DNA of 64,000 nucleotides, from contig CACYQB010000011.1 of NCBI GenBank assembly GCA_902776435.1, positions 62,001-126,000 of the forward strand, given 5' to 3'. Shown here piece by piece: positions 34,533 to 57,046 of this stretch. A program made the position numbers and the translations under genes. Numbering within the stretch: the stretch's first letter is position 1; each line of letters opens with the position of its first letter. The notes beneath the pieces were generated by a model that saw only the letters and a program-made list of their open reading frames with translations, had not been told where the DNA came from and made no database searches. Source of the stretch: an uncultured Bacteroidales bacterium (lineage in GTDB: Bacteria > Bacteroidota > Bacteroidia > Bacteroidales > Muribaculaceae).

Positions 34533-35351
34533 TTACTCTTGATAATCTATCTCATTGATGACCTGTCTGAGGCGCGTCAAGCGCGTGAGCAGGCCCTCAA
34601 GCAGATCGAGCTTCAGCATGTTGGCACCGTCGCTCTTGGCCACCGATGGATCCTGATGCGTCTCGAGGAACAAGCCGTCGGCTCCGCTGGCGATGGCAGC
34701 GCGGGCCATCGTCTCGATGAGTTCGGGGCGTCCGCCTGTCACGCCCCCACCCTGGTTGGGTTGCTGCAGGGAGTGGGTGACATCCACAATCACGGGAGCA
34801 TAAGCCTGCATTACGGGCACACCACGGAAGTCCACCACGAGATCCTGATAGCCGAATGTAGTACCGCGTTCGGTGATGGCTACGTCATCATTACCAGCAT
34901 CACGCACTTTCTGCACGGCAAACCGCATCGACTCAGGTGCCAGGAACTGGCCCTTCTTGATGTTCACCATGCGGCCCGTGTGGGCGGCAGCGACCAGCAG
35001 TTCGGTCTGGCGGCACAGGAAAGCGGGAATCTGCAACACGTCAACAAACTCGGCGGCGATGTCGGCCTCAACGGGTTCGTGGATATCAGTGACCACGGGA
35101 ATCTTGAACGTCTCGCCCACCTTGCGCAGGATGCGCAGGGCTTTCTCGTCACCGATGCCGGTAAATGAGTCGATTCGTGAGCGGTTGGCCTTGCGGTAAC
35201 TGCCTTTGAACACATATGGGATACCCAATTTCTGGGTAATGTTGACTGCTTTCTCAGCGATGTCCAGCGCCATCTCCTCTCCCTCGATAACACAGGGGCC
35301 AGCGAGCAGGAAGAAGTTGTGATGCTGTGATGTCATTAATTCTTTAATCAT
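34533..35351 (-). CDS. kdsA: 2-dehydro-3-deoxyphosphooctonate aldolase (Kdo-8-P synthase)
   Basis: KdsA condenses phosphoenolpyruvate with arabinose-5-phosphate to give Kdo-8-phosphate for lipid A core synthesis. The 272-residue sequence has LAGPCVIEG (about 16-24), VFKGSYRKANRSR (PEP/A5P binding), VVTDIHEP, IKKGQFLAPE, the ERGTTFGY loop and DVTHSLQQPNQ with a late FLETHQDPSVAKSDG. Length is near the usual 275-284. It is in a minus-strand run with rsmE upstream (42 bases) and the TPR/tamL pair downstream, an envelope-flavoured cluster. Confidence 0.97.
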   Translation of the reverse strand: MIKELMTSQHHNFFLLAGPCVIEGEEMALDIAEKAVNITQKLGIPYVFKGSYRKANRSRIDSFTGIGDEKALRILRKVGETFKIPVVTDIHEPVEADIAAEFVDVLQIPAFLCRQTELLVAAAHTGRMVNIKKGQFLAPESMRFAVQKVRDAGNDDVAITERGTTFGYQDLVVDFRGVPVMQAYAPVIVDVTHSLQQPNQGGGVTGGRPELIETMARAAIASGADGLFLETHQDPSVAKSDGANMLKLDLLEGLLTRLTRLRQVINEIDYQE

Positions 35352-43477: not shown

Positions 43478-44911
43478 CTATTTACGATGAATAATATCGA
43501 TGGCCTCTTGTAATTCAGGCATACGGAATACTTTCGCAATTCCCAAATAGACCAGAAAGCCAAGAGGTGTACCTATTGCTAATTTAATAATATCGTTGTC
43601 AAAGGGCATCACGGCAAAATAGATGACAGAACCCATAGCGAGCGATGCCAGCAATGTTGGTACCATATCCATCATCTGACGAAAGAAGCCCACATGAATG
43701 AATTTGCCGGTATAATAAGTATTAACGACCAAACAGAAAACTGACGTGAAAATCGCACCAATGCAAATACCCATAATACCAAATGGCACACTGATAATAA
43801 TAACGACTGTAGTAATTGTTTTCTTGATGATTTCCAGCCTCAAGAACAAGTCGCTCCTACCTTTTACCTTTAACAAGTTTAAGTTAATGGCATGCACAGG
43901 AAACCACATCAGCGAAAAGCAAAGTACCTGTAAATAAGGCACACATTCGATCCATTTATCTGTTACCATACTGATTACCAGCGGACGAGCCAATGCTGCC
44001 ATACCCATCATAACGGGAAATACAATAAAAACAGCAAATCGTAAAATGCGCCGATAATCATGTTCTAAGCGTTCTTCATCATCTTGAATCCGGCTCAAGA
44101 CCGGAAAGGTCACCTGTTGTAACACGTTTGTAATCCCTGTCGCTGGCATTGATGCATAGCTTCTTGCACGCGAATATTGTCCCAAATCAGCAGCAGAGTA
44201 AAACTTACCTATAACTATAGGGTATATGTTCCCGTAGACAGTATCCAGCAAGGCCGAGGCCAACATTTTTGATCCATACCCCCAAAGATAGCCAAACGAC
44301 GCCTTGTCCCAGCGGCCTCGTGGACGCCAAGACGAAAGCACCCACATTAACACCATACGAATTATTCCACTTACTATATGCTGGACAACTAGAGACCAAA
44401 CCCCAAACCCACGATAAGCAGCAATGATTGCAACAATGCCCGCTATCACTTGTGAAGCAACATTAATGATCATTTTGGCCTTGAAATTCAAGGCTCTAGA
44501 CAACTGGGCATCCTGCACAATCGTGAATGACGAGATAATCAGCAACAATCCCTCAACGCGCAACAATTGTGTCAAAATCGGCTTGTCATAGAACAATGAT
44601 ACCAATGGCGCAACCAACCAGATGACTCCAAACATCACAACGCCAACGATGATATTAAAATAGAACGCTGTGCTACTATCGTTCTCAGACATATCAGGCT
44701 TGCGTATCAATGCATTTCCAAAGCTACTGTTAACAAACGCTAAAGCGACAGCATTAAACACCCCAATCATCGCCAGCAGACCATAATCACTTGGGCTAAG
44801 CAATCGGGCCAAAATTACCCCAATAACAAAGCCAAAACCAAGTGTAGCCACTTGGTCCAACGATGTCCAGGCAACGCCCTTAACTGTCTTTTGCTTTAAC
44901 GATTCAGGCAT
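43478..44911 (-). CDS. Polysaccharide flippase (Wzx/TuaB-WzxC type)
   Basis: The 477-residue membrane protein has 12-14 helices and the oligosaccharide flippase start KGVAWTSLDQVATLGFGFVIG, with VILARLLSPSDYGLLAMIGV (core RLLSPSDYGLLAMIG) and YSRARSYASMPATGITNVLQ later (core YSRARSYASMP). It resembles the TuaB/WzxC branch, which exports lipid-linked repeat units. No Wzy polymerase was recognised among its neighbours, so the unit may be transferred singly or polymerised by a protein encoded elsewhere. Confidence 0.88.
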   Translation of the reverse strand: MPESLKQKTVKGVAWTSLDQVATLGFGFVIGVILARLLSPSDYGLLAMIGVFNAVALAFVNSSFGNALIRKPDMSENDSSTAFYFNIIVGVVMFGVIWLVAPLVSLFYDKPILTQLLRVEGLLLIISSFTIVQDAQLSRALNFKAKMIINVASQVIAGIVAIIAAYRGFGVWSLVVQHIVSGIIRMVLMWVLSSWRPRGRWDKASFGYLWGYGSKMLASALLDTVYGNIYPIVIGKFYSAADLGQYSRARSYASMPATGITNVLQQVTFPVLSRIQDDEERLEHDYRRILRFAVFIVFPVMMGMAALARPLVISMVTDKWIECVPYLQVLCFSLMWFPVHAINLNLLKVKGRSDLFLRLEIIKKTITTVVIIISVPFGIMGICIGAIFTSVFCLVVNTYYTGKFIHVGFFRQMMDMVPTLLASLAMGSVIYFAVMPFDNDIIKLAIGTPLGFLVYLGIAKVFRMPELQEAIDIIHRK

Positions 44912-44925
44912 CCGCTTCTAGAACA

Positions 44926-45966
44926 TCAATCTTTATCAGTTACCAATCTATTTATTTCTTCGGGTGATATATAATCTTCTTCTCTTCCCCAGATTTTTGC
45001 AAACCGTTGCTGTTCCATCTCTTTCTTAAAATCAACTAGATAATCATGCCATGAGTATTTAGGTTCGTAACCAAGTTCGTTCACTGTCTTCCTAATATCA
45101 AGCACAAACTGCTTCGAACTTCTTTTTTCAGGTCTATATATTATACGCGAAGGATGATCTTTGGGGCTAAATACATCAACAATGCCTTCAATACGTTCCT
45201 TCAATGTACTTCCGCCACTTCCAACATTATAAATACCACCCTCAACGCCAGCAGAAATCGCTTTTTCTATAATCTGCAAAAAATCTTTTATGCAAATTGT
45301 TTCAAGTAAACGATTCGGATCTCCCCATAATTCTATATCTGCACCCCGCATCGCTCGATAAATAAAATATCGGTCTGAAACTAATACTTTTATCCCATCT
45401 GTGAAAGTAAAAGGATTCGGATGATAGAGATAAATCCTCGATAAACGAAAAATAAACCGCTTAATTCCATAAGAGTCATAATAATGCTCTATTATATCAA
45501 CAGCCGCATTTTTAGCTATCACATAAAGCCAATGGTCTCCGTTAGGGACCTTTCTTTGCGAATCTGCAGGAATAGGTACTTTTGTCCCAAACAAATAATT
45601 GATATCAAAAAGAGTTTGTGGAAATAAGATTCTGTCGGCTCCCACCTTGCGGGTATACTCTAATACATTGAGTGTCCCCTGAATAATAGACTGTACATAG
45701 ATAGAGCCATTAAAGCCCTCCATGACCGCTGGAAGCATTCCAGCAAAATGCACAACTGCAAATATATCTTTTTGTGGCAATAAATCAAACTCGTCCACAT
45801 TAGTAATATCCACTGAATAGTAAGGAATACTATAATCAGCAAAAAAACCATTATCTCTTTTACGATGACCTACTGCTATTATATCATATCCAAGGCCCTT
45901 CAAGTAAGTAGATATATGGGCACCTAAATTGCCCGTTGCTCCAAAAACAACAATCTTTTTGTCCAT
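44926..45966 (-). CDS. NAD-dependent epimerase/dehydratase
   Basis: A 346-residue extended SDR protein: IVVFGATGNLGAHIS binds NAD(P) (about 5-19), and the middle has the FPQTLFDIN and DHWLYVIAKNA segments, where YVIAK supplies the Tyr-xxx-Lys pair. The second half binds a nucleotide sugar (YNVGSGGSTLKERI). It probably epimerises or reduces a nucleotide-linked keto sugar. The gene is distinctly AT-rich, as are its upstream neighbours, and overlaps closely in spacing (four bases after the ATP-grasp gene). Confidence 0.82.
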   Translation of the reverse strand: MDKKIVVFGATGNLGAHISTYLKGLGYDIIAVGHRKRDNGFFADYSIPYYSVDITNVDEFDLLPQKDIFAVVHFAGMLPAVMEGFNGSIYVQSIIQGTLNVLEYTRKVGADRILFPQTLFDINYLFGTKVPIPADSQRKVPNGDHWLYVIAKNAAVDIIEHYYDSYGIKRFIFRLSRIYLYHPNPFTFTDGIKVLVSDRYFIYRAMRGADIELWGDPNRLLETICIKDFLQIIEKAISAGVEGGIYNVGSGGSTLKERIEGIVDVFSPKDHPSRIIYRPEKRSSKQFVLDIRKTVNELGYEPKYSWHDYLVDFKKEMEQQRFAKIWGREEDYISPEEINRLVTDKD

Positions 45967-45970
45967 AAAA

Positions 45971-47080
45971 TCACATATTTGGTGTTACCTTATATTTTGC
46001 TTTATATATCAAATAGCCATTTCTTTCATAATTTGAATGGCTTTCTTTTAAATCTGTTGAAAATACGTTCTTCTCCACAAGCCATTCTTTCCCATCAGCA
46101 TTAACGAAGAACGGCAACAAGTTTGAGGTCTGTTTTGTCAAATAATAAATTCCAGCGTAAAATGGTTCTGAAATTCTAACAGGTTCAACGAATTGATTCA
46201 GGGCAACATCGATAATGCACTTTAAGTAATCAACACCCGAACTCATAAATACGAGCTTATTTGATATATCATCACCTCCTCCTCGAAGATTGGCTTCAAT
46301 TAGATACAACTCATCCCCGTTGTATTTTACTTCAATATGTGATGCGCCATTAGTATAACCTATTCTCTCAAGTAACTCAGGTATTACCGTCTCTATTTTA
46401 CACCGCATCTCAGTAGTAACATTAGCTGGCTGATGATGGCCAAGCTCTACGAAATGAGGAGCAGAAGAGCTGTCTTTATCTGTAATCTGAATTACGTAAT
46501 GCCTACCATGAAAAGAGATGCTTTCAATTGACAACTCTTTTCCTTCAACAAACTCCTCTACAACTATATCAGAGGCGCATTCATTTGATGCATAGCTAAT
46601 TGCATCCTTAAATTCAGATTCGTTGCGAGCAAATGACACACCGCTTTTACTATTTCCTTTGCATGGCTTAACAACACATGGATATATATGACGATCCTCG
46701 CCTTCAAACTTATAATATCTCGGGGACTTCAGACCTTTAATTGATTTAGCCAAAGATCTAACATAATACTTATCACATAACGACACTAGAGTCTTATATG
46801 GTGTCCCATTTAAATGCAATTTTTCACATAGATAAGCAACAACTTCCGTAGTACTATCAGAAGCATTTGAAACGACCCCATCAACTCCTATCGTCTTACA
46901 TATCTCAACAATTCTATCCATCTCATAAATAGATATTGGATAGAAATGGTTAACAACATTCTTACATATTGCCCCATCTTGCCAAGCAAAGCAAAAAGTT
47001 TCGAGGCCTAGTTCCTTCGACTTTTCACAAAGTGGGTATTGTCCAATAGAAGCACCAATAATAGCTAGTTTTTTCCCCAT
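45971..47080 (-). CDS. ATP-grasp ligase, second of a tandem pair
   Basis: The 369-residue cytosolic protein has an ATP-grasp layout: N-terminal Rossmann-like part (KLAIIGASIGQYPLCEKSKE, core LAIIGASIGQYPLC), then PCVVKPCKGNSKSGVS (ATP-binding lysines, about 135-150), VVEEFVEGKELSIES and the metal-binding YLIEANLRGGGDDISN. Such enzymes join a carboxylate to an amine or thiol through an acyl phosphate. It follows a similar gene by 43 bases. Sequence is AT-rich compared with the chromosome around it. The substrates are unknown. Confidence 0.8.
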   Translation of the reverse strand: MGKKLAIIGASIGQYPLCEKSKELGLETFCFAWQDGAICKNVVNHFYPISIYEMDRIVEICKTIGVDGVVSNASDSTTEVVAYLCEKLHLNGTPYKTLVSLCDKYYVRSLAKSIKGLKSPRYYKFEGEDRHIYPCVVKPCKGNSKSGVSFARNESEFKDAISYASNECASDIVVEEFVEGKELSIESISFHGRHYVIQITDKDSSSAPHFVELGHHQPANVTTEMRCKIETVIPELLERIGYTNGASHIEVKYNGDELYLIEANLRGGGDDISNKLVFMSSGVDYLKCIIDVALNQFVEPVRISEPFYAGIYYLTKQTSNLLPFFVNADGKEWLVEKNVFSTDLKESHSNYERNGYLIYKAKYKVTPNM

Positions 47081-47123
47081 CTAACACCTTAAGTAAATGC
47101 ATCAAATGATTTCTGAGTGTCAC

Positions 47124-48260
47124 TCACGATACTACAACTTTCACGCCTTGTTTGGCTTGTTGGATGATGATGCTCACATCCTCGTGGGAATTGGCTTTCA
47201 ATGCCAACGTGCCGATGGCCATGTTGGCTCCAGTGAAAGTTTCAACTTTAGTTCCAGGCTTTATCCACAAATCTTCTTCGACGATATGTAGCCTCAATTC
47301 TGGAGCAATCTCTAATTTTGAGAAAGTACCTGACTGATTAGCATGAAGAATGATTTCCACTATATGCTGTCTTGTCTGGTCCATACCCTTCTCGGCGAGA
47401 CGATTGCCACCAGCTCTGGGCGAGACCTCCATGATGTAGGCTTTGCCATTCGTACACAAGCGCGTCTCTATGTTATACAAGCCTGTTCTCATATTCAATA
47501 ACGTCATCAGTCGTTGCAGTTCAGACCGCAGTTCATCTAGCACTTCTAGTGGCATTGATGATGGCCAGCTATATGCTGCAGGAGTATATTCATTTTCAGC
47601 ATCCTCATCAAAATATTGATTATTGAAGGTGCAAAACACCAGATTTCCATCAACTGAAAAACTGTCAGTATCAGAAGATGAGCCATCTTTCTCAAGGAAG
47701 TCTTCAATGATGAAGTGGCGGGAGGGGGAGCAGTCGAGGGCATGGGCGATGGCAGCGGAGAGGTCGGCGGGGTCGTCGACACGGGTGACGCCTTTGCTGC
47801 CGGCGCTATCCACGGGCTTGACGATGACGGGCCAGTTGAAATAGTTGATATCCTTCAGGGCGTCGTCACCCTCGTTATAGCCGCGCGCATTTGGCACGTT
47901 GAATCCGTTGTCTGCCAGAAACTTGCGGAATTTAGATTTATCTTGCAGAATGCATGCGGCCTCATAGCTGCACTGGAACGGCAGGCCCATCTTTTCGGCC
48001 GTATAAGCCGCTGCCACAACTCCTGGGTCAACGGCAAAAGACATGATACCGTCAATCTGCAACCGCTGAGCAACTTCAAGCACCGCCTCCTTGTCAATGA
48101 TACTCACGTTATGATACTCGTCGCTATACTTATGGGCAATATTGCTAGGCAGATAGTCCACAGTAATGACGTGGATATCATGGCGATGTGCCGCCTCGAT
48201 GACTGGCAACAGGTAGCGCAGGCCACCCAACAACATGAGTTTCTTTTTGGTTTGAGTCAT
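47124..48260 (-). CDS. ATP-grasp ligase, first of a tandem pair
   Basis: The 378-residue protein starts KKKLMLLGGLRYLLPVIEAA, trimmed to LMLLGGLRYLLPVI, and has VIVKPVDSAGSKGVTRV (ATP-binding), FIIEDFLEKDGSSSDTDSF (hinge) and YIMEVSPRAGGNRLAE (metal ligands). It resembles carboxylate-amine ligases of the PurK/biotin carboxylase superfamily. It begins five bases after the DegT aminotransferase stop, suggesting that it couples an acid to the amino group made by that enzyme; this is inferred from order alone. Confidence 0.82.
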   Translation of the reverse strand: MTQTKKKLMLLGGLRYLLPVIEAAHRHDIHVITVDYLPSNIAHKYSDEYHNVSIIDKEAVLEVAQRLQIDGIMSFAVDPGVVAAAYTAEKMGLPFQCSYEAACILQDKSKFRKFLADNGFNVPNARGYNEGDDALKDINYFNWPVIVKPVDSAGSKGVTRVDDPADLSAAIAHALDCSPSRHFIIEDFLEKDGSSSDTDSFSVDGNLVFCTFNNQYFDEDAENEYTPAAYSWPSSMPLEVLDELRSELQRLMTLLNMRTGLYNIETRLCTNGKAYIMEVSPRAGGNRLAEKGMDQTRQHIVEIILHANQSGTFSKLEIAPELRLHIVEEDLWIKPGTKVETFTGANMAIGTLALKANSHEDVSIIIQQAKQGVKVVVS

Positions 48261-48265
48261 GAGAT

Positions 48266-49378
48266 TTATCTTTTCAAAATCGCATCGATAACGCGTTGTT
48301 GATCGGCGTCGGTGAGTTCGTGGTGGATGGGGAGGCAGATGACGGCGTCGGCCATGCGGGTGGCGTTAGGCAGGTTCTCACGGGTGGAGCTCGGTAGGCC
48401 TCGGTAGGTCGAGAAGCTGCTGATGAGCGGATAGAAGTAGCGGCGGGCGAGAATGCCCTGGTCGCGCATCTTGAAATATAGTTCATCGCGCGTCATACCA
48501 TACTTCTCGGCATCCACAAAGATGGGGAAGTAGCCGTAGTTATGACGTACACCAGGCATATCGTCCCAGAATGTGATTCCTTCAACTGAACGGAGCACCT
48601 CACGATATCGGACAGCAATCTGACGGCGCGACTTGATGGCCGCGTCCACCTGACGAAGGTTGAGCAGACCGAAGGCTGCCCTCATTTCATCCATCTTGCC
48701 ATTGATGCCCGGAGCAACGACCTCGGTTTCGCCGGCAAAGCCGAAATTCTTGAGGTAATCGATGCGTTCTTTCATCTTGGCGTCACGAACAACAAGTGCC
48801 CCACCCTCGGTCGTACCAAAGACCTTAGTGCCGTGGAAACTCAGCGTGGACATATCACCTTCCTCAAGGATACTCCTACCGTCCACCTCAATTCCGAACG
48901 CATGAGCAGCATCATAGATGACCCGAAGGCCATACTTGTCGGCAATCGCCTGAATCTCCTTAGTGCGACACGGCTTGCCATACACATGCACGGGCATGAT
49001 GGCTGTCGTGCGCGGTGTGATGGCCGACTCAATCCTATCAGGATCAATGCCACCTGTCGCCAAGTCGATATCGACAAACACCGGCTTGATGCCATTCCAC
49101 CACAGCGAGTGGGTGGTCGCCACAAAGCTATAGGGGGTCGTAATCACTTCTCCGCTGATGTTCAACGCCTGCAGAGCTGTGATAAGCGGCAATGTGCCGT
49201 TAGTGAACACGCTTATATACGGAACCTTGAGGTACTCGCATAGGGCGGCTTCAAACCGTTGATGAAATTCGCCGTTATTGGTCACCCACTTGCGGTCCCA
49301 AATCTCCTGAAGCATCTGATGAAATTCATCAAGATCGGGCAGCAACGGCGATGTTACCGTGATAATATCCTTTTCCAT
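48266..49378 (-). CDS. DegT/DnrJ/EryC1/StrS sugar aminotransferase
   Basis: The 370-residue PLP enzyme has TPYSFVATTHSLWW (about 81-94), DAAHAFG with PLP-binding Asp156 and the internal aldimine lysine K185 in SFHGTKVFGTTEGGA. The lysine rules out an RfbH-type 3-dehydratase, which has His there. It transaminates a nucleotide-linked keto sugar, giving a 3- or 4-amino sugar; the sequence style (VHVYGKPC, WVTNNGEFH) resembles VioA/FdtB-type enzymes. The two ATP-grasp genes follow immediately. Confidence 0.9.
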   Translation of the reverse strand: MEKDIITVTSPLLPDLDEFHQMLQEIWDRKWVTNNGEFHQRFEAALCEYLKVPYISVFTNGTLPLITALQALNISGEVITTPYSFVATTHSLWWNGIKPVFVDIDLATGGIDPDRIESAITPRTTAIMPVHVYGKPCRTKEIQAIADKYGLRVIYDAAHAFGIEVDGRSILEEGDMSTLSFHGTKVFGTTEGGALVVRDAKMKERIDYLKNFGFAGETEVVAPGINGKMDEMRAAFGLLNLRQVDAAIKSRRQIAVRYREVLRSVEGITFWDDMPGVRHNYGYFPIFVDAEKYGMTRDELYFKMRDQGILARRYFYPLISSFSTYRGLPSSTRENLPNATRMADAVICLPIHHELTDADQQRVIDAILKR

Positions 49379-50528: not shown

Positions 50529-51281
50529 CTACTGCAGGCCGTTTGCCTCTACAAATTGAATGACTCGCTGCAGATCAGCGGGCGTGTCCACAGCAATCGT
50601 CTCACTATCCACCTCGATATACTGGACATGATAACCATTTTCAATGAAACGGAGTATCTCAATGTCTTCAACCGATTCTATCTTGGCTTTGCCATATTTC
50701 TTGCCAAAATCACAATAGAATTTTAATGCCTGAGGTGTGAAGCCATAGACACAGACTTGTTTATAATAGTCCACATTGATATTCCCCTTAGGGAATGGAG
50801 CAGCTGCGCGGGTCAAGAAGATGCCACGCCCATCGGCAGCAGCGATAACCTTAGGTACCGTGACATTGATTAAATCTACTGGATCTTTAATCTTGGTCAT
50901 CAGATTGGTCACCTGAATATCAGTGTCCGAATCGTTCAAGAATGGCTCAATCGCCTTGACGATTGTCGCCGGCTCGATAAGCGGTTCATCCCCTTGGATA
51001 TTGACATACAAGTCAGCTGGGATTTTCTCGGCCACCTCTCCCAAGCGATCAGTGCCTGTGCGATGAGATGTTGAGGTCATAACCACAGGAATATGCCGTA
51101 CGGCGCACGCGTCATAGATTCGCTTGTCATCGGTAGCAACATAGACCTCGTCAAGTTGTTCTACTTTTTTAGCCTGCAGATAAACACGCTCAATCATCAG
51201 CTTGCCGCATATCTCTGCAAGGGGTTTGCCCTCAAAACGAGAAGACTGGTATCTAGCCGGAATAACAGCTATAATTTTCAT
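50529..51281 (-). CDS. kdsB: KdsB-type CMP-sugar synthetase
   Basis: The 250-residue enzyme has the Kdo cytidylyltransferase signature: IPARYQSSRFEGKPLAEI (about 7-24), VATDDKRIYDAC, TSHRTGTDRLGE and NIQGDEPLIEP. KdsB activates Kdo with CTP. Its place here, seven bases after the aldolase fusion and inside a capsule-type operon, suggests that it activates Kdo or a similar 3-deoxy-2-keto acid for the polysaccharide. It may also be the only housekeeping copy; only a genome search can tell. Length is typical. Confidence 0.88.
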   Translation of the reverse strand: MKIIAVIPARYQSSRFEGKPLAEICGKLMIERVYLQAKKVEQLDEVYVATDDKRIYDACAVRHIPVVMTSTSHRTGTDRLGEVAEKIPADLYVNIQGDEPLIEPATIVKAIEPFLNDSDTDIQVTNLMTKIKDPVDLINVTVPKVIAAADGRGIFLTRAAAPFPKGNINVDYYKQVCVYGFTPQALKFYCDFGKKYGKAKIESVEDIEILRFIENGYHVQYIEVDSETIAVDTPADLQRVIQFVEANGLQ

Positions 51282-51288
51282 AATTATC

Positions 51289-52821
51289 TTAGATGAGTTG
51301 ATATATTGATTCGCTCTTTAATGCACTAAACAATGAAGGTGTCAAGGAATAAAGGGCCCCCACATTCTTGGTAAATGTCTCAAACAGTTCCCTGTTTTCA
51401 CTGGTCAGCGTCAGTTCCTTGTCCGAGAGTACCTGCCCGCGATAACCATCGTAGCCCACTATATTCACACGTTTTGACTGTAACTCAATAGCAATTTGGA
51501 GCGCTACGGTTGTACACGAGTCGGCATACCGATTGATAAAAGAGACTTTGGGCAACTCAAATGTGCTCGATTGAGCATAAGTCGGCACATCTGTTCCCAT
51601 CAACCGGGGATAGGGAGGCAACACACAACAGCCTTGAAAATTTTCTTGTGGAACAGTTTTTAGCATCCTCTTGGCCTCATTGCCAACCAACACATAATAT
51701 TTTTTGTTAGAAACATCATCGAACAATGCGGCATGACGCGTGGTCGCAAAAACGATGGCAACATCTGGATGATGACAAAGATAACGCTTGATCGCTTTGA
51801 TATGGGCTCCAACGCTCTGCCCTCCTCCAATGATCAACACTTCCTCACATGAAGGCGCATCAAGCAATGGATAATGGGCATTGTCAGCCACATGAATGCG
51901 TTTATTATCGACTGCCCTGACAATGTTGTTGAAACTATAGACACGATTGGTAACCAGTGCCATGACTTCCTTCTGTGGAATCGAGTTCGCTCCTGAAATC
52001 ATATAGGGCAATGATGTTCCCCAACGGTATTCTTCATGTAAGGGTCTGAAAGCCAAAATCAAATCACCCAACACATTGAAGTCAACTTCAAGGCCTTGCC
52101 TGTTAAGAGTGGTGAGCAGGAGTTCTATATTCAAGTTACCTGCTCCACGGCCCATACCCAAAACTGTTGCATCTACCGAGTCAATACCACAATCAATAGC
52201 AGCCAGAGTATTGGCCAGACCCATCTGGAGATTATTATGGCCATGAAAACCCAACTTACAGTCAAGAATTGTCTTGAGTTTTTCGATAGTTGCGGTTACC
52301 TGATCAGGCATCATGCTGCCAAAAGAATCTACCATGTTGAGAATGGTAGCGACGCCATTTAATTGTGGCATTTTCTCAAACAACCCATCGTATTGATCCC
52401 ACTTAGACATATACATCAAGTTGAACGCGACATCAAAGCCCATCGCTTTCACCTCACGTCCAAGGGCTACTGCACGGTCAAAATTGTCAGGACTGACAGC
52501 CATTCTTACCATGTCTGCCAATCCCTTAATGGGGCCGAGCAGTGAAGGGAGATCACTCACACGCACACTCTTCTCATTGATCATAACCGCAATCTTGCGA
52601 ATCGATTGCCTCCTGATATGTTCAAGAGTAGACGCGGGTGTATATCCAAATTCACCCATATAGTCTTTCTCTGGCAGGTTTCTATATCCCACCTCAATAT
52701 AATCAATGGGCAGTTGATTGACCGCTTCAATGTAAGCATCAACTATAACGGGTCCAAAATCCCAATTAGTATAGTAACCGCCGTCCCGCAGCGTGCAGTC
52801 AAGTATTTGAAACTTGTCCAT
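51289..52821 (-). CDS. DRE-TIM aldolase fused to a C-terminal Rossmann-like domain
   Basis: Residues 1 to about 300 form an HMGL-like DRE-TIM barrel: DCTLRDGGYYTNW (8-20, metal and catalytic Arg-Asp), IEVGYR, and GFHGHNNLQMGLANT with the metal-binding HxH (about 192). This matches the 4-hydroxy-2-oxovalerate aldolase group, which splits or joins a 2-keto acid and an aldehyde. From about residue 325, EEVLIIGGGQSVGAHIKAIKRYL (core VLIIGGGQSVGAH) opens a second domain resembling DUF115/MptE-like proteins. The usual aldolase partner dehydrogenase is absent. It is 63 bases after a stand-alone DUF115 protein and seven before kdsB. Confidence 0.82.
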   Translation of the reverse strand: MDKFQILDCTLRDGGYYTNWDFGPVIVDAYIEAVNQLPIDYIEVGYRNLPEKDYMGEFGYTPASTLEHIRRQSIRKIAVMINEKSVRVSDLPSLLGPIKGLADMVRMAVSPDNFDRAVALGREVKAMGFDVAFNLMYMSKWDQYDGLFEKMPQLNGVATILNMVDSFGSMMPDQVTATIEKLKTILDCKLGFHGHNNLQMGLANTLAAIDCGIDSVDATVLGMGRGAGNLNIELLLTTLNRQGLEVDFNVLGDLILAFRPLHEEYRWGTSLPYMISGANSIPQKEVMALVTNRVYSFNNIVRAVDNKRIHVADNAHYPLLDAPSCEEVLIIGGGQSVGAHIKAIKRYLCHHPDVAIVFATTRHAALFDDVSNKKYYVLVGNEAKRMLKTVPQENFQGCCVLPPYPRLMGTDVPTYAQSSTFELPKVSFINRYADSCTTVALQIAIELQSKRVNIVGYDGYRGQVLSDKELTLTSENRELFETFTKNVGALYSLTPSLFSALKSESIYQLI

Positions 52822-52884
52822 AATCGTAAATTTTAGAAATTGATTCCGACCGAAACCCCAATTGAGTAAAAACGTGTTGGTTCG

Positions 52885-53649
52885 TTATAGAATATCATCG
52901 AGATTCACACGAGGAAATGCTTCCAATCGACCTCCACGTGTAGCATTATACACTTTAAAATTGCTATGGTGCTGGGCGAAACGCTGAGCAGTAATGTAAG
53001 CCATGGTGCTCTCCACGACACGCGGCAGGTTTAACCCGACATTACTGGCCTTAGAGCCTGTAAAATACTCCTTAACACCATCTTTATAAACGGGCACGCC
53101 ATTCTCATCTAAACTAATAGCATAATTATGGTCTATTCCCAAGAGATATACCTCTGTAAATCCCATATAATACGCCAACTGAATAGCACCATAAGTCACA
53201 GTAAATCCTTGGCCAAGAAAACGATTAATTTGAGTACTAAAATCTGCAGTCTTAGGATAGAATTCCTTGTGCCTTAACACAAAGTAGGAAACATCCTCTT
53301 TATCATCAAACAATTTCTTCACATCGATGGGCATGAACTTGCGTCTGCATTGCAGATTTGAAATATCATCCCTGAATTTATCAATCAATTTGGCATCTTG
53401 ATTCATGTAATATACAGGCCGCCAGTCCGTCTGCTCAAATATTTCAAAAATCCTATTCGAGCCTATTGTCACTTCACCATCCAGCTTTTCCAAGTCATTG
53501 ACAGTCAAGCTAGGGCCAGTACCAACGATGAAACAACGCTGACCAGAATGAATGCCTTTATAACGTGTCAATTCCTCGCAAACCGATCGATTTGAGAGGT
53601 ACTGGCGAGCAGAGATAATCCTTGATTTCAAGTTCTCAATTGACTTCAT
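52885..53649 (-). CDS. DUF115/Maf-like protein
   Basis: The 254-residue cytosolic protein has CFIVGTGPSLTVNDLE (about 38-53), TIGSNRIFEIF, TYGAIQLAYYMGFTEVYLLG (core AIQLAYYMGFTEVYLLGIDH) and ends VYNATRGGRLEAFPRV, the arrangement of the DUF115/6-hydroxymethylpterin kinase MptE-like family. Relatives called Maf are tied to transfer of CMP-activated nonulosonic acids onto flagellin. Here, next to a CMP-sugar synthetase, a transfer role is an inference. Its start overlaps the cupin epimerase stop by four bases (ATGA), so the two are translationally coupled. Confidence 0.78.
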   Translation of the reverse strand: MKSIENLKSRIISARQYLSNRSVCEELTRYKGIHSGQRCFIVGTGPSLTVNDLEKLDGEVTIGSNRIFEIFEQTDWRPVYYMNQDAKLIDKFRDDISNLQCRRKFMPIDVKKLFDDKEDVSYFVLRHKEFYPKTADFSTQINRFLGQGFTVTYGAIQLAYYMGFTEVYLLGIDHNYAISLDENGVPVYKDGVKEYFTGSKASNVGLNLPRVVESTMAYITAQRFAQHHSNFKVYNATRGGRLEAFPRVNLDDIL

Positions 53650-54218
53650 AACAGTTCAAGTTGTGAATAGTCTTTAAAACTCATTAAGTTGAGATCTTTT
53701 TCGCTGATAATTAGGTTCTGTTCTCCTCCGATTTCTTCAAAAGGCCACTCTATTGCCAAATCGGGATCATTATACATGATGCCGGAATCACCTTCTCCGT
53801 AGAACACCTCGTCACACTTGTAGCTGACTATCGAGTCCTCAATCACTAGATAGCCATGGCCAAAGTACTGAGGCACCAACAAGGACAAGGTATTATCCCC
53901 AGTGAGATGGAAACCGCGCCACTGACCATAGGTGGGTGAATCTGGACGTAAATCAGCAATCACATCATAGACATGACCATTGACGCACCTGACGAGCTTG
54001 GCCTGTTGCTTTACCAGTTGGAAATGCAAGGCACGGATAACCCCTTTCTTGGAGACTGTATAAAATACTTCTTTCAAGTCATGGTCTATGCCGTTGGCCA
54101 TGAAAGTGTCAATGTTGTAATCCTTAATAAAGCCGCCGCGATTATCGGTGGCATGGAAACTCTTGATGAGATAGGCCCCTTTAAGGTCCAACTCTTGAAA
54201 CTCAAACTTTTGTATCAT
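53646..54218 (-). CDS. RfbC-like cupin nucleotide-sugar 3,5-epimerase
   Basis: The 190-residue protein resembles dTDP-4-dehydrorhamnose 3,5-epimerase: FHATDNRGGFIKDYN, GVIRALHFQLVKQQAKLV with the catalytic His (about residue 65), VYDVIADLRPDSPTYGQW and VPQYFGHGYLV. Because rfbF and rfbG are just upstream and no dTDP-glucose genes are present, its substrate is more likely CDP-4-keto-6-deoxyglucose than the dTDP form. Related CDP-sugar 5-epimerases exist (AscE type). Confidence 0.85.
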   Translation of the reverse strand: MIQKFEFQELDLKGAYLIKSFHATDNRGGFIKDYNIDTFMANGIDHDLKEVFYTVSKKGVIRALHFQLVKQQAKLVRCVNGHVYDVIADLRPDSPTYGQWRGFHLTGDNTLSLLVPQYFGHGYLVIEDSIVSYKCDEVFYGEGDSGIMYNDPDLAIEWPFEEIGGEQNLIISEKDLNLMSFKDYSQLELL

Positions 54219-54237
54219 GGTAACCCATTATATTCCA

Positions 54238-55149
54238 TTAAATTGTTTTGAGCCATTCCATGGTCATGCGGGTACCCTCGGCAAATCCCACTTTGGGCTT
54301 GAAGCCACAGTCTTGCTCAATATCTGTTGTATCAAAGGCTGACAAGGGCAGATTGGTCCCCGTGAAAGGCACATCGCCGAACTGGGGTGACATGTCGGGA
54401 GCCAAAGCCTGCTGCATTTCAATGATAAATTCTTTAAGCGGACGGGCATTACCGCTTCCAATAATGTATTCCTTAAAGGGGACTCCATTGCAGGCGACGT
54501 CAAAGAAGGCCTGCGCCACGTCAGTCACATAGACAAAATCGTAATTCTGGGTTCCTGCTGTGAATTGCAACGGTTCGAGGTTGATAATCTTTCGCAATGT
54601 GGTGTTGACAAATCGGGGGGACAATTCCCCCACTCCATAGGCATTGGTAATCATTGGCCACATTAGGTCTATGCCAATATTTGCAGCGACCGATTTACAC
54701 AAGCAGTGAGCAATGTGCTTTCCCATCCCATAGATATATCCCATTCCTGGACGACTGCCCTGAGTGTGCACTGCTGCTTCGACCTCGCGTTCCATGATAC
54801 TACCTGCACAAATGAATCTCGAGCACCCCAACTCCTTGGCCGATTTTAAACACTCTACGGTATTTAGGGCATTCTGTAACTGCAGGTTATAATCGGTCCT
54901 CAAAGGGCCAGCCGAACCCGCCCAAGCAAAGTGGACAAAAGTATCATACTCTCCTGCCGGGATAGTTTGCATGAGCTGTTTTTTGTCTGTAATATCAACA
55001 CACTTATATGTCAATCCTGATTTGGACTGCAAACGTCTAGGCTTGTCAATGATGTCCAAGGCAAGAACCTCAATACCATTGTCCAGAAAGCATTGAACAG
55101 TATAACTACCCACAAATCCATCAGCACCAGTGATAACAGCCTTATTCAT
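54238..55149 (-). CDS. NAD-dependent sugar epimerase/reductase
   Basis: A 303-residue SDR enzyme: VITGADGFVGSYTVQ (NAD-binding, about 5-19), CAGSIMERE and YIYGMGKHIA with the catalytic Tyr-xxx-Lys (about 139-143). The second half includes FVYVTDVAQAF and the SGNARPLKEFI segment. After RfbG and with the cupin epimerase next to it, it probably reduces the 4-keto group of a CDP-6-deoxyhexulose to finish a CDP-6-deoxy sugar; this is inferred from order. Confidence 0.83.
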   Translation of the reverse strand: MNKAVITGADGFVGSYTVQCFLDNGIEVLALDIIDKPRRLQSKSGLTYKCVDITDKKQLMQTIPAGEYDTFVHFAWAGSAGPLRTDYNLQLQNALNTVECLKSAKELGCSRFICAGSIMEREVEAAVHTQGSRPGMGYIYGMGKHIAHCLCKSVAANIGIDLMWPMITNAYGVGELSPRFVNTTLRKIINLEPLQFTAGTQNYDFVYVTDVAQAFFDVACNGVPFKEYIIGSGNARPLKEFIIEMQQALAPDMSPQFGDVPFTGTNLPLSAFDTTDIEQDCGFKPKVGFAEGTRMTMEWLKTI

Positions 55150-55168
55150 ATCACTACTAAATTAAGTT

Positions 55169-56233
55169 TTATTGTTTAGCTTTGATATATTCTTCAATTT
55201 GCTTTTCCATACAGACATTCATATCGCCTTGTCGTTGCCAGCATTTACTCCACTCAACAACTTTATCGATTGCAGTATCCAGATTCCAACGCGGAGACCA
55301 TCCGAAAACGGATTTAATCTTTGAGCAGTCCAATTTCAAGTAGTTAGCCTCATGGGGGCCTTCTACATTCGCTGGTGTACGCCACGAGAGGCCTTCTCCC
55401 CAATGCTTGACAAACATATCAACTAGAGCTCCTGTCTGGAAACAATCCTGGTCATCAGGACCAACGTTATACCAACCAGAATAGGCATTGTCCTCGTACT
55501 GCTTTGCACATATCATCAGATATGCGAACAAAGGCTCAAGCACATGCTGATAAGGTCGAGTAGAGTGAGGATTTCGGACAATAATTTCCTCATGCTTTAC
55601 AGCTGCTCTAACACAATCAGGAATAATGCGGTCGTTGGCAAAATCACCGCCACCAATCACATTTCCTGCACGCGCTGTGGAAATAGCAATTCTCCCATCT
55701 GAAAAGAAGCTATTCTTGTAACTATGCGTCACTAATTCAGAACATGACTTGGAATTGGAATACGGGTCGAAGCCGTCCAGCATCTCATCTTCACGATACC
55801 CCCATGCCCACTCACGGTTCAAGTAAACTTTATCAGTTGTCACATTGAGGAACGAACGGACCGAAGCCGTTGCCCGCAAACACTCCATCACATTGACCGT
55901 GCCCATGACATTGGTCTCATAGGTATATCGTGGTTCCTTGTAACTATCACGGACAATAGGCTGTGCGGCAAGATGCAAGACCAATTCAGGTTGCGCATCA
56001 TCAAACGCTCTCATCAAGGAAACCTGGTCTCTAATGTCTCCGATTATCGAATGACACATCTCATCTCCGTCAATAATCTCAAACAAGGCCGGACTAGTAT
56101 TGGGCGTGAGAGAATAACCAGTAACCTCAGCGCCCAACATCGACAGAATCTTGCATAACCAAGTTCCCTTGAAGCCAGTGTGACCCGTCACTAGTACACG
56201 TTTACCGTGATAGAAATCTAAATCAAACTCCAT
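55169..56233 (-). CDS. rfbG: CDP-glucose 4,6-dehydratase
   Basis: RfbG converts CDP-glucose to CDP-4-keto-6-deoxyglucose. The 354-residue protein has VLVTGHTGFKGTWLC (about 13-27), HLAAQPIVRDSYKEPRYTYE with TNVMGT (substrate pocket; core AAQPIVRDSYKEP), VTTDKVY and the YSNSKSCSELV active-site YxxxK. GHTGFKG and AAQPLV-type strings are specific for the CDP enzyme. It lies 30 bases after rfbF. Confidence 0.94.
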   Translation of the reverse strand: MEFDLDFYHGKRVLVTGHTGFKGTWLCKILSMLGAEVTGYSLTPNTSPALFEIIDGDEMCHSIIGDIRDQVSLMRAFDDAQPELVLHLAAQPIVRDSYKEPRYTYETNVMGTVNVMECLRATASVRSFLNVTTDKVYLNREWAWGYREDEMLDGFDPYSNSKSCSELVTHSYKNSFFSDGRIAISTARAGNVIGGGDFANDRIIPDCVRAAVKHEEIIVRNPHSTRPYQHVLEPLFAYLMICAKQYEDNAYSGWYNVGPDDQDCFQTGALVDMFVKHWGEGLSWRTPANVEGPHEANYLKLDCSKIKSVFGWSPRWNLDTAIDKVVEWSKCWQRQGDMNVCMEKQIEEYIKAKQ

Positions 56234-56263
56234 AAAGGATTACAGTCATTGATAATTATCCTT

Positions 56264-57046
56264 TTATTGATTGTGCCACAGCTTCCACGGTGCATTTCCT
56301 GACTCCCACATGCGTTCGAGTTTTTCCTTCTCACGCAAAGTATCCATACATTGCCAGAATCCCTTGTGTACATACCCCATCAGTTGATGGTCGCACACCA
56401 AGCCATTCATCGGTTCTTTCTCAAAAATAATATCATCACCAGAAATATAATCAAAAAGATCTGGTTCAAACACCATAAATCCAATATTAATCATATCATC
56501 GTCCTGGTCACTCTTCTCACGGAACGCCTCAACGTCCCCACTGCTTGAAAGTTCAAGGACACCTTTGTTCTGGCTGAAATTATAAACTGAAACAGTACCG
56601 ATTTTGCCGTGCGACTGATGATACTCAAGCAATTCCCTAACATTGATGTCACCTACTGCATCACCATAAGTTAACATAAATGTCTCATTACCAACATAAT
56701 CCTTAATCCTCTTAACTCGGCCTCCAGTCTGGGTATTAAGACCTGTATCTATAATAGTCACCTTCCATGGTTCCACGTGTTTACGATGGACAATAATCTC
56801 ATTTCCCTTGGTGAAATCAAAAGTAACATCGGATGTGTGCAAGAAATAATCAGCGAACCATTCCTTAATGACATGCTGCCGATATCCAGCGCAGATGATG
56901 AAATCATTAAACCCATAGTGAGAATATACCTTCATAATGTGCCACAAAATGGGCATACCACCAATCTCTACCATGGGTTTGGGACGAAACTGGGATTCTT
57001 CAGAAATGCGGGTTCCAAAACCTCCCGCCAGTATCACGACTTTCAT
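56264..57046 (-). CDS. rfbF: Glucose-1-phosphate cytidylyltransferase
   Basis: RfbF makes CDP-glucose from CTP and glucose-1-phosphate. The 260-residue enzyme has ILAGGFGTRISEESQFRPKPM, shown by its core LAGGFGTRI and RPKPMVEIGG, then ILWHIMKVYSHYGF, the LTYGDAVGDIN acidic motif and FWQCMDTLREKEKLE near the end. All are specific features of RfbF. It is the second gene of the operon, 16 bases after the first glycosyltransferase. Confidence 0.95.
   Translation of the reverse strand: MKVVILAGGFGTRISEESQFRPKPMVEIGGMPILWHIMKVYSHYGFNDFIICAGYRQHVIKEWFADYFLHTSDVTFDFTKGNEIIVHRKHVEPWKVTIIDTGLNTQTGGRVKRIKDYVGNETFMLTYGDAVGDINVRELLEYHQSHGKIGTVSVYNFSQNKGVLELSSSGDVEAFREKSDQDDDMINIGFMVFEPDLFDYISGDDIIFEKEPMNGLVCDHQLMGYVHKGFWQCMDTLREKEKLERMWESGNAPWKLWHNQ

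Follow-up and report, generated by a model that had tools for sequence, protein, structure and literature searches.

We have analysed a stretch of 64,000 nucleotides (hereafter the window; C11:62001-126000) from the genome of an uncultured Bacteroidales bacterium (3.45 Mb, 95% complete), in which three consecutive genes on the minus strand encode a DUF115/MptE-like protein, a two-domain protein with a DRE-TIM aldolase domain (hereafter ALD) and a KdsB-type synthetase of the kind that couples sugars to cytidine monophosphate (CMP). The genes are separated by 63 and 7 bases, respectively. Coordinates and Pfam families (PF01973, PF00682 and PF02348) agree with a first-pass annotation made from the sequence alone, and the 'aldolase fusion' reported there was recovered: residues ~325-510 of ALD constitute a second domain behind the HMGL-like one. 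Considering the genomic context and the sequence comparisons given below, we regard it as probable that the module makes and uses a CMP-activated 3-deoxy-2-ulosonic acid, with ALD supplying the keto acid for the linked synthetase.

Genomic linkage of the aldolase and a CMP-sugar synthetase

Loci were collected by ALD alone, 15 from genome contigs and then more from surveys of 395, 393 and 395 genomes of the class, the order and the phylum. Full-length ALD (>600 bits) occurs in 4, 6 and 9 genomes of these surveys, respectively, the genome of the window being counted in each; one genome (G331) falls in two surveys and another (G858) has two ALD copies. The set analysed here comprises 30 distinct close full-length ALD loci including the window, in which the ALDs are 39-91% identical to each other. 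Left out were a duplicate (L079, of L012), two divergent loci (L073 and L074, 261 and 244 bits), L017, L067, L026 (350 aa, 152 bits), with which no synthetase was seen, and 22 rows of single-domain homologues. The loci nearest to that of the window come from metagenome-assembled genomes of Bacteroidales, Prevotellaceae and Muribaculaceae.

A CMP-sugar synthetase is present within three genes of ALD in all 30 loci. More specifically, the nearest synthetase is one gene away in 25 of them, two genes in three (L016, L069, L070) and three genes in two (L071, L072), against an expectation for the other genes of the same stretches of 3.3, 7.9 and 12.4 of 30 within one, two and three genes. The divergent ALDs of L073 and L074 have a synthetase at one and four genes, respectively. 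In a control with flanks of about 1.5 kb (less at contig ends) a synthetase was found in 13 of 16 full-length loci versus none of 22 single-domain homologues; in the three loci missed (L061, L062 and L068) the synthetase lies further off or, in L068, is of a kind that the first profiles overlooked.

The partner synthetase is KdsB-like in 11 of the 30 loci and not KdsB-like in the other 19, and the three partners of the latter kind that were tested all match PseF (NCBIfam) under its cut-off. On the ALD tree the type of synthetase changes six times, all six changes being forced by starred branches (seven when L073 and L074 are included). The role of the synthetase is kept beside ALD while the type of enzyme changes. 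Of the 17 genes that served to build the KdsB-like and other synthetase profiles, 16 belong to the ALD loci; a third profile was made from the synthetase gene of L070 itself, subsequently confirmed by Pfam (42.5 bits). Among the 12 later loci (L069-L072, L075-L078, L080-L083), 11, i.e. all but L070, were found by profiles that do not contain them. PF02348 is passed by 11 partners besides that of the window (L008-L012, L014, L016, L022, L023, L024 and L070) and by the partner of the divergent L074; the remaining partners were assigned by custom profiles or TIGR00466.

The association extends beyond the Bacteroidota. A tblastn search on plasmids gave eight records. In two of these, both Leisingera plasmids, the match spans 99-100% of ALD at 26-27% identity, and in a third Leisingera plasmid it spans 71%. 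The gene order on all three is ALD, '3-deoxy-manno-octulosonate cytidylyltransferase' and 'HAD family hydrolase'; in the two plasmids that were read, ALD has Tyr16 and the C-terminal domain, and KdsB has the motif QVCIY. No KdsA was found on the three plasmids themselves. The five other records match the aldolase domain only, and in the one of these that was opened (Mesorhizobium record H4) there is no annotated synthetase beside the aldolase.

The first-pass annotation had proposed a survey of whether its three families co-occur elsewhere. The survey bears it out for two of them: the pair of ALD and CMP-sugar synthetase is constant, within three genes throughout the set and adjacent on the three Leisingera plasmids. 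The DUF115 protein is one of several transferases, the place of which is taken elsewhere by members of GT52, GT29 or the polysialyltransferase type. In addition, the set includes a HAD phosphatase in 14 of the 30 loci, but none is present among the scanned genes of the window locus.

The aldolase, the synthetase and the candidate transferases

The N-terminal domain of ALD matches PF00682 (HMGL-like) with 99.3 bits, far over the cut-off of 29, and belongs to the DRE-TIM / HMGL-like superfamily. The best PDB chain is 3dxi (E 2.7e-127, 428.7 bits over the N-terminal domain), a 'putative aldolase' of the same family that presumably originates from Bacteroides vulgatus; its chain of 320 aa contains the aldolase domain only and the name of the entry gives no function. 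When ALD is aligned with DmpG (1nvm), the RD motif (R12, D13) and H193 and H195 are retained. In the 32 full-length rows, R12 and D13 are invariant in all 31 that are readable there and H193 and H195 in all 32. We take the Asp and the two His to be the metal ligands and the Arg to be the residue of the RD motif. Position 16 is occupied by Tyr in each of the 31 full-length rows that are readable there and by Leu in each of the 22 single-domain homologues. Tyr16 is also found in L017, a locus without a KdsB match, and is thus a mark of the two-domain class and not of the linkage. For the related BphI, residues 87, 89 and 290 are named in the accessible part of a paper, with no mention of the corresponding His (PMC3962088). 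The single-domain relative (~316 aa) is frequent in the order (L025, L037-L055, L058, L059), with Leu for Tyr16 and with no CMP-sugar synthetase in the flanks available.

The C-terminal domain of ALD has no Pfam match over cut-off, PF01973 reaching 16 bits in the protein of the window. Nevertheless, 13 of the 16 C-terminal domains aligned (alignment A4) match PF01973 at E<1 (best 1.7e-4), and a comparison of the C-terminal profile with the DUF115 alignment (hhalign) covers most of its length, with an E-value of 1.7e-4 and a probability of 49.5%. Against PDB sequences the profile gave a single match (E 1.9). The domain is probably a second, divergent DUF115-like domain.

The KdsB of the window is well over the cut-off of PF02348 (Table 1) and passes the broader subfamily NF009905 (269.5 vs 255); its best PDB chain is 1gq9, a Kdo cytidylyltransferase. 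It scores under the equivalog cut-off of TIGR00466 (143.8 vs 155.2 bits), and so do the other linked enzymes examined: in 16 genomes, the six ALD-linked KdsB-type genes all score between 130.7 and 151.7, compared to 157.8-234.3 for the top unlinked genes of 11 genomes. Moreover, the 11 KdsBs linked to close ALDs group together as one clade (support 90/88, not starred, 92% of bootstrap trees) in a tree of 26 rows. All 11 share the motif Q[VI]C[VI]Y (Q175-x-C177-x-Y in the window), whereas H.G.Y stands at this place in 1gq9 and in each of the 13 unlinked rows (12 genes). The alignment places the changed motif in the C-terminal, Kdo-binding domain, and the changed His is presumably a contact with Kdo. 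Binding of Kdo by the C-terminal domain of KdsB has been described, and no contact is named for this His in the accessible part of the source (PMC3149649).

The DUF115 protein of the window passes the MptE-like cut-off of PF01973 and is a candidate for the transfer of the activated sugar. It reaches 15.7 bits with the WaaZ model TIGR04437 (cut-off 200), with weak matches at E 0.006-0.007. Its profile gave three PDB matches (E 0.046-1.2), among them 5mu5 (E 0.23), which we take to be a Maf structure and which extends over the C-terminal portion of the PF01973 match. In Maf, PF01973 forms the central domain, which is similar to the sialyltransferase Cst-II, and the Maf enzymes can use CMP-Neu5Ac as well as CMP-Kdo (PMC11339370). 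Relatives of the DUF115 protein adjoin ALD in L003, L004, L006 and L028 and lie three genes off in L005, those of L003-L006 being 68-88% identical to that of the window. Six loci have a transferase over the Pfam cut-offs, of PF01973 (window, L023/L028), GT52 (L008), GT29 (L016) or the polysialyltransferase family (L029, L070), and those of L009 and L011 were recognised by custom profiles only. Taken over Pfam, identity to the DUF115 protein and custom profiles, a transferase of the CMP-ulosonate type was recognised in 12 of the 30 loci. Matches under the cut-offs were obtained in L014 and L081 (MptE-like) and in L027 (polysialyltransferase); the candidate of L071 has no family match.

By reading, ALD and the synthetase follow dTDP-rhamnose-type genes and precede agmatine deiminase and amidase-like genes in L010, L012, L013 and L015. 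Since no CMP-sugar transferase was recognised in these four loci, the C-terminal domain of ALD is itself a candidate transferase there. In L004 the complete DUF115-ALD-KdsB trio is present and none of the nine neighbours scanned is of a glycan-assembly family (beta-galactosidase, cleaved-adhesin protein, cation efflux pump, PASTA protein, pseudouridine synthase, PF01553 acyltransferase, phosphoesterase and two without a family). This points to the three genes being sufficient and to the aldehyde and the acceptor being common components of the cell.

Surroundings of the three genes

The G+C content is 39-47% across 42-58 kb of the window versus 46-60% in the flanks, and this low-G+C stretch corresponds to a polysaccharide locus that encodes a flippase as well as glycosyltransferases and acyltransferases (Table 1). 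Downstream in this locus (window 44926-49378) lie genes for a DegT aminotransferase, two ATP-grasp ligases and a short-chain dehydrogenase/reductase (SDR), a set that is likely to serve an amino-sugar or amino-acid decoration of the glycan. Judged from its gene content, the RfbF/RfbG/SDR/epimerase block upstream of the DUF115 gene is a separate CDP-sugar route. A scan of the sequence gave 19 promoter-like sites (12.1 expected) and 6 terminator-like ones (3.2 expected), which were not used as evidence.

Table 1. Features of the window that are discussed in the text (positions are those of the window).
Position	Strand	Feature	Basis
34533..35351	-	Canonical KdsA (Kdo-8-phosphate synthase), beyond the polysaccharide locus	TIGR01362 380.7 bits, cut-off 314
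43478..44911	-	Wzx-type flippase of the polysaccharide locus	PF13440 318.6 bits
49464..50486	-	GT2 glycosyltransferase immediately downstream of KdsB	PF00535 90.8 bits
50529..51281	-	KdsB-type CMP-sugar synthetase, 250 aa, the genome's second copy	PF02348 143.1 bits, cut-off 22.6; TIGR00466; alignment, tree
51289..52821	-	ALD, 510 aa: DRE-TIM aldolase domain (~4-316) and MptE-like domain (~325-510)	Pfam/NCBIfam; PDB 3dxi
51292..51870	-	Probable MptE/DUF115-like C-terminal domain of ALD (part aligned as A4)	Weak PF01973 matches; hhalign
52885..53649	-	DUF115/MptE-like protein (PF01973), 254 aa; proposed CMP-ulosonate transferase	Pfam 51.6 bits, cut-off 34.6
53646..57046	-	RmlC-like epimerase, SDR, CDP-glucose 4,6-dehydratase (RfbG), glucose-1-phosphate cytidylyltransferase (RfbF)	TIGR02622 443.1 bits, TIGR02623 369.1 bits

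Some of the other loci have additional genes. Kinases of the PfkB family adjoin ALD or the synthetase at L007:11544-12581, L080:10080-11108 and L083:9070-10098, that of L007 being related to 2-keto-3-deoxygluconate kinases (NCBIfam). An SDR gene stands alongside an HpaI-type aldolase gene in L070 and L072, and without one in L071. L069 and L070 lie about 20 kb apart in the single-contig genome G858, which has two full-length ALDs; a separate set of HpaI, synthetase and HAD genes accompanies each of them. In L073 (4631-10099) one run contains a KdsA-like gene (by reading), a SIS/CBS gene of the KdsD type, two CMP-sugar synthetases, the divergent ALD and a HAD gene. In Megasphaera paucivorans (L017:6752-14513) a divergent two-domain ALD is found between RfbF/RfbG with an aminotransferase-like gene on one side and a thiamine-diphosphate carboligase on the other, a run that perhaps represents a branched CDP-sugar route.

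A proposed route to CMP-activated ulosonic acids

We infer the following sequence of reactions. ALD would be a pyruvate aldolase of the DRE-TIM type that uses a divalent metal and joins pyruvate, as its enolate, to a sugar aldehyde. The aldehyde would probably be a phosphorylated aldose where a HAD gene is present, and in the window either a free one or one that is dephosphorylated by another enzyme. The resulting 3-deoxy-2-keto acid would close to a ring, which the KdsB-type synthetase would couple to CMP, and this coupling would draw the aldol reaction, which is reversible, towards the product. Transfer of the activated sugar to a glycan or lipid acceptor would then fall to the DUF115/Maf-like protein. 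The MptE-like domain of ALD, for its part, may serve to bind the product, with or without CMP, or may act as a second transferase. Supply of the keto acid by ALD would most simply account for a linkage that is constant and a partner that changes in type, for the separate KdsB subclass, for the families of the transferases and for the carriers without matches to KdsA and NeuB. A bolder version, which we consider rather unlikely, is that one polypeptide both builds and attaches a new ulosonic acid: the Tyr-bearing DRE-TIM aldolase would be fused to a Maf/sialyltransferase-like domain that transfers the CMP product, in a route free of phosphoenolpyruvate (PEP) that spans Bacteroidota and Alphaproteobacteria. 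RfbF and RfbG were also considered as suppliers of the aldehyde and were dropped, as 28 of the 30 ALD stretches lack the pair.

The scheme resembles known pathways in part. Kdo is made and activated by KdsD, KdsA, KdsC and KdsB and then transferred by WaaA, WaaZ or KpsC. Activation by a KdsB-type enzyme, the phosphatase present in many loci and a DUF115-type protein with weak similarity to WaaZ are common to both, whereas the formation of the C-C bond, as proposed here, would rely on a pyruvate-type DRE-TIM aldolase and not on KdsA, which depends on PEP, and the linked KdsB has Q.C for H.G and falls under the kdsB equivalog cut-off. The pathways of the nonulosonic acids consist of NeuB, LegI or PseI, NeuA or PseF, a HAD phosphatase and transferases of GT29, GT42, GT52 or Maf. 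Likewise, weakly PseF-like synthetases, HAD phosphatases and genes of sialyltransferase families are found near ALD in other loci, but a relative of NeuB (at least 28% identity) is present in one of the 30 ALD stretches (L027), as a separate set. By reading, a NeuB relative also lies near the divergent ALD of L074, and NeuC/NeuA-like genes lie about 8 kb upstream in L007. With the 4-hydroxy-2-oxovalerate aldolases DmpG and BphI, ALD shares the DRE-TIM family (by sequence), the Arg and Asp of the RD motif and the two His ligands; it differs from them in the Tyr that replaces the His after the RD motif, in its setting in a glycan locus and in its MptE-like C-terminal domain. Finally, the Maf/PseD flagellin glycosyltransferases have PF01973 in common with the DUF115 protein of the window, and L023 matches the PseD profile with 33.9 bits. 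This is far below the PseD cut-off of 670 bits, and the protein is small with a single recognised domain.

A number of observations weigh against a role of ALD as supplier of the keto acid. ALD scores below the equivalog model for 4-hydroxy-2-oxovalerate aldolase (TIGR03217; 104.7 bits vs a cut-off of 286). Moreover, His21 of DmpG, which we take to be the base, has no counterpart, as Tyr16 stands in its position, so another acid/base would be needed. With the His replaced and the cut-offs missed, it would be premature to name ALD a 4-hydroxy-2-oxovalerate aldolase or to regard the linked KdsB as a Kdo enzyme before they have been tested. The linkage has its gaps as well. No synthetase was found in the sequence available around the ALD of 554 aa in L067 (a contig of 3,495 bases), and the two-domain ALD of L017 (23% identity) has Tyr16 but no KdsB match. 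The partners of the divergent ALDs of L073 and L074 fall outside the KdsB clade and have neither Q.C.Y nor H.G.Y. In 18 of the 30 loci no transferase of the CMP-ulosonate type was established among the neighbours scanned. A PfkB kinase of the 2-keto-3-deoxygluconate-kinase kind, found in 3 of the 30 loci (L007, L080, L083) and never together with a HAD gene, is left unexplained by the simple scheme. Furthermore, an HpcH/HpaI-type aldolase follows directly after ALD in 4 of the 30 loci (L016, L069, L070, L072) and in the divergent L074, and L029 has a DeoC-like aldolase; if these enzymes make the ulosonate, ALD does something else in those loci. The sharing of one gene run by two pyruvate-type aldolases, as with HpaI and ALD, is likewise not accounted for by the simple scheme on its own. 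Finally, the genome of the window has its own KdsA, so the KdsB of the window could use Kdo.

Among the alternatives, the one closest to the proposed route is that ALD itself makes Kdo, or an isomer, from pyruvate and D-arabinose or arabinose 5-phosphate. It is a special case of the keto-acid supply by ALD, with which its likelihood overlaps, and we consider it possible but not likely. The homology to KdsB, the carriers without a KdsA match and the HAD phosphatase of 14 loci are in line with it, and so is the run in L073, in which a KdsA-like gene, a gene of the KdsD type and two synthetases accompany the divergent ALD. On the other hand, such an enzyme would be superfluous in genomes that have KdsA, the signature of the Kdo-binding domain differs in the linked KdsBs, and the non-KdsB-like synthetases of 19 loci suggest another or a variable sugar.

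It is improbable, in our view, that the locus handles ordinary Kdo, made by the KdsA of the genome and added to capsule or lipopolysaccharide by the linked KdsB and a transferase, with ALD unrelated. The genome of the window does contain KdsA, together with another KdsB gene and a gene of the WaaA type (PF04413), none of which was reported in the first-pass annotation, and the passing of NF009905 and the best PDB chain, 1gq9, would fit a Kdo enzyme. Neither KdsA nor NeuB was found among the 17 proteins scanned at 41-60 kb of the window, the KdsA gene lying about 16 kb off, outside the locus. No match to KdsA at E<=1e-20 was found in 5 of the 16 ALD genomes (G402, G858, G866, G814 and G933), and four of these (G402, G858, G866 and G814) have no match to NeuB at E<=0.001 either, while G933 has two. 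These five genomes are 98-100% complete and G858 consists of one contig. The CMP-sugar synthetases of the four genomes need another source of substrate, unless a synthase was missed. In fact, the only TIGR00466 match of G866 is the one linked to ALD. The clade of close linked KdsBs with its altered H.G, and the constant position beside ALD of synthetases that vary in type, also argue against ordinary Kdo.

We give equally little credence to the view that another aldolase, of the HpaI or DeoC-like kind, makes the ulosonate and that ALD is auxiliary, carrying out a second aldol or Claisen addition or exerting regulation via its MptE-like domain. The HpaI genes directly behind ALD, the DeoC-like gene of L029 and the replacement of the DmpG His by Tyr would be explained by it, but no HpaI match is present within six genes (in the sequence available) in 26 of the 30 loci, versus a synthetase in all 30, and there is no aldolase among the nine scanned neighbours in L004. 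Finally, it is very unlikely that ALD extends the CDP-4-keto sugar of RfbF/RfbG to a branched sugar (cf. yersiniose), with the KdsB pair being separate, as could be imagined from the RfbF, RfbG, SDR and epimerase genes immediately upstream in the window and from the divergent ALD of L017 with RfbF, RfbG and a carboligase, because the Rfb pair (at least 28% identity, E<=1e-10) is found in 2 of the 30 ALD stretches, the window and its nearest relative L003, and L004 has the trio without it.

To our knowledge, the backbone is made by a PEP-dependent synthase in the established routes to CMP-activated Kdo, sialic, legionaminic and pseudaminic acids and Kdn. We propose that the module of ALD and CMP-sugar synthetase represents a CMP-ulosonate pathway with a putative non-homologous enzyme for the formation of the C-C bond. 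No recognisable description of it was present among the literature matches listed, subscription papers being mostly outside the search, so that a published account may exist. If the proposal is true, the pyruvate-aldolase route would constitute a second, independent origin of the class of CMP-ulosonic acids. Annotation based on KdsA and NeuB would then overlook glycans that bear ulosonates, considering that four near-complete genomes match neither. Moreover, a simple rule on the sequence, namely ALD beside a CMP-sugar synthetase, with Q.C.Y in the KdsB type, would help to find new acidic sugars in bacteria of the gut and the sea.

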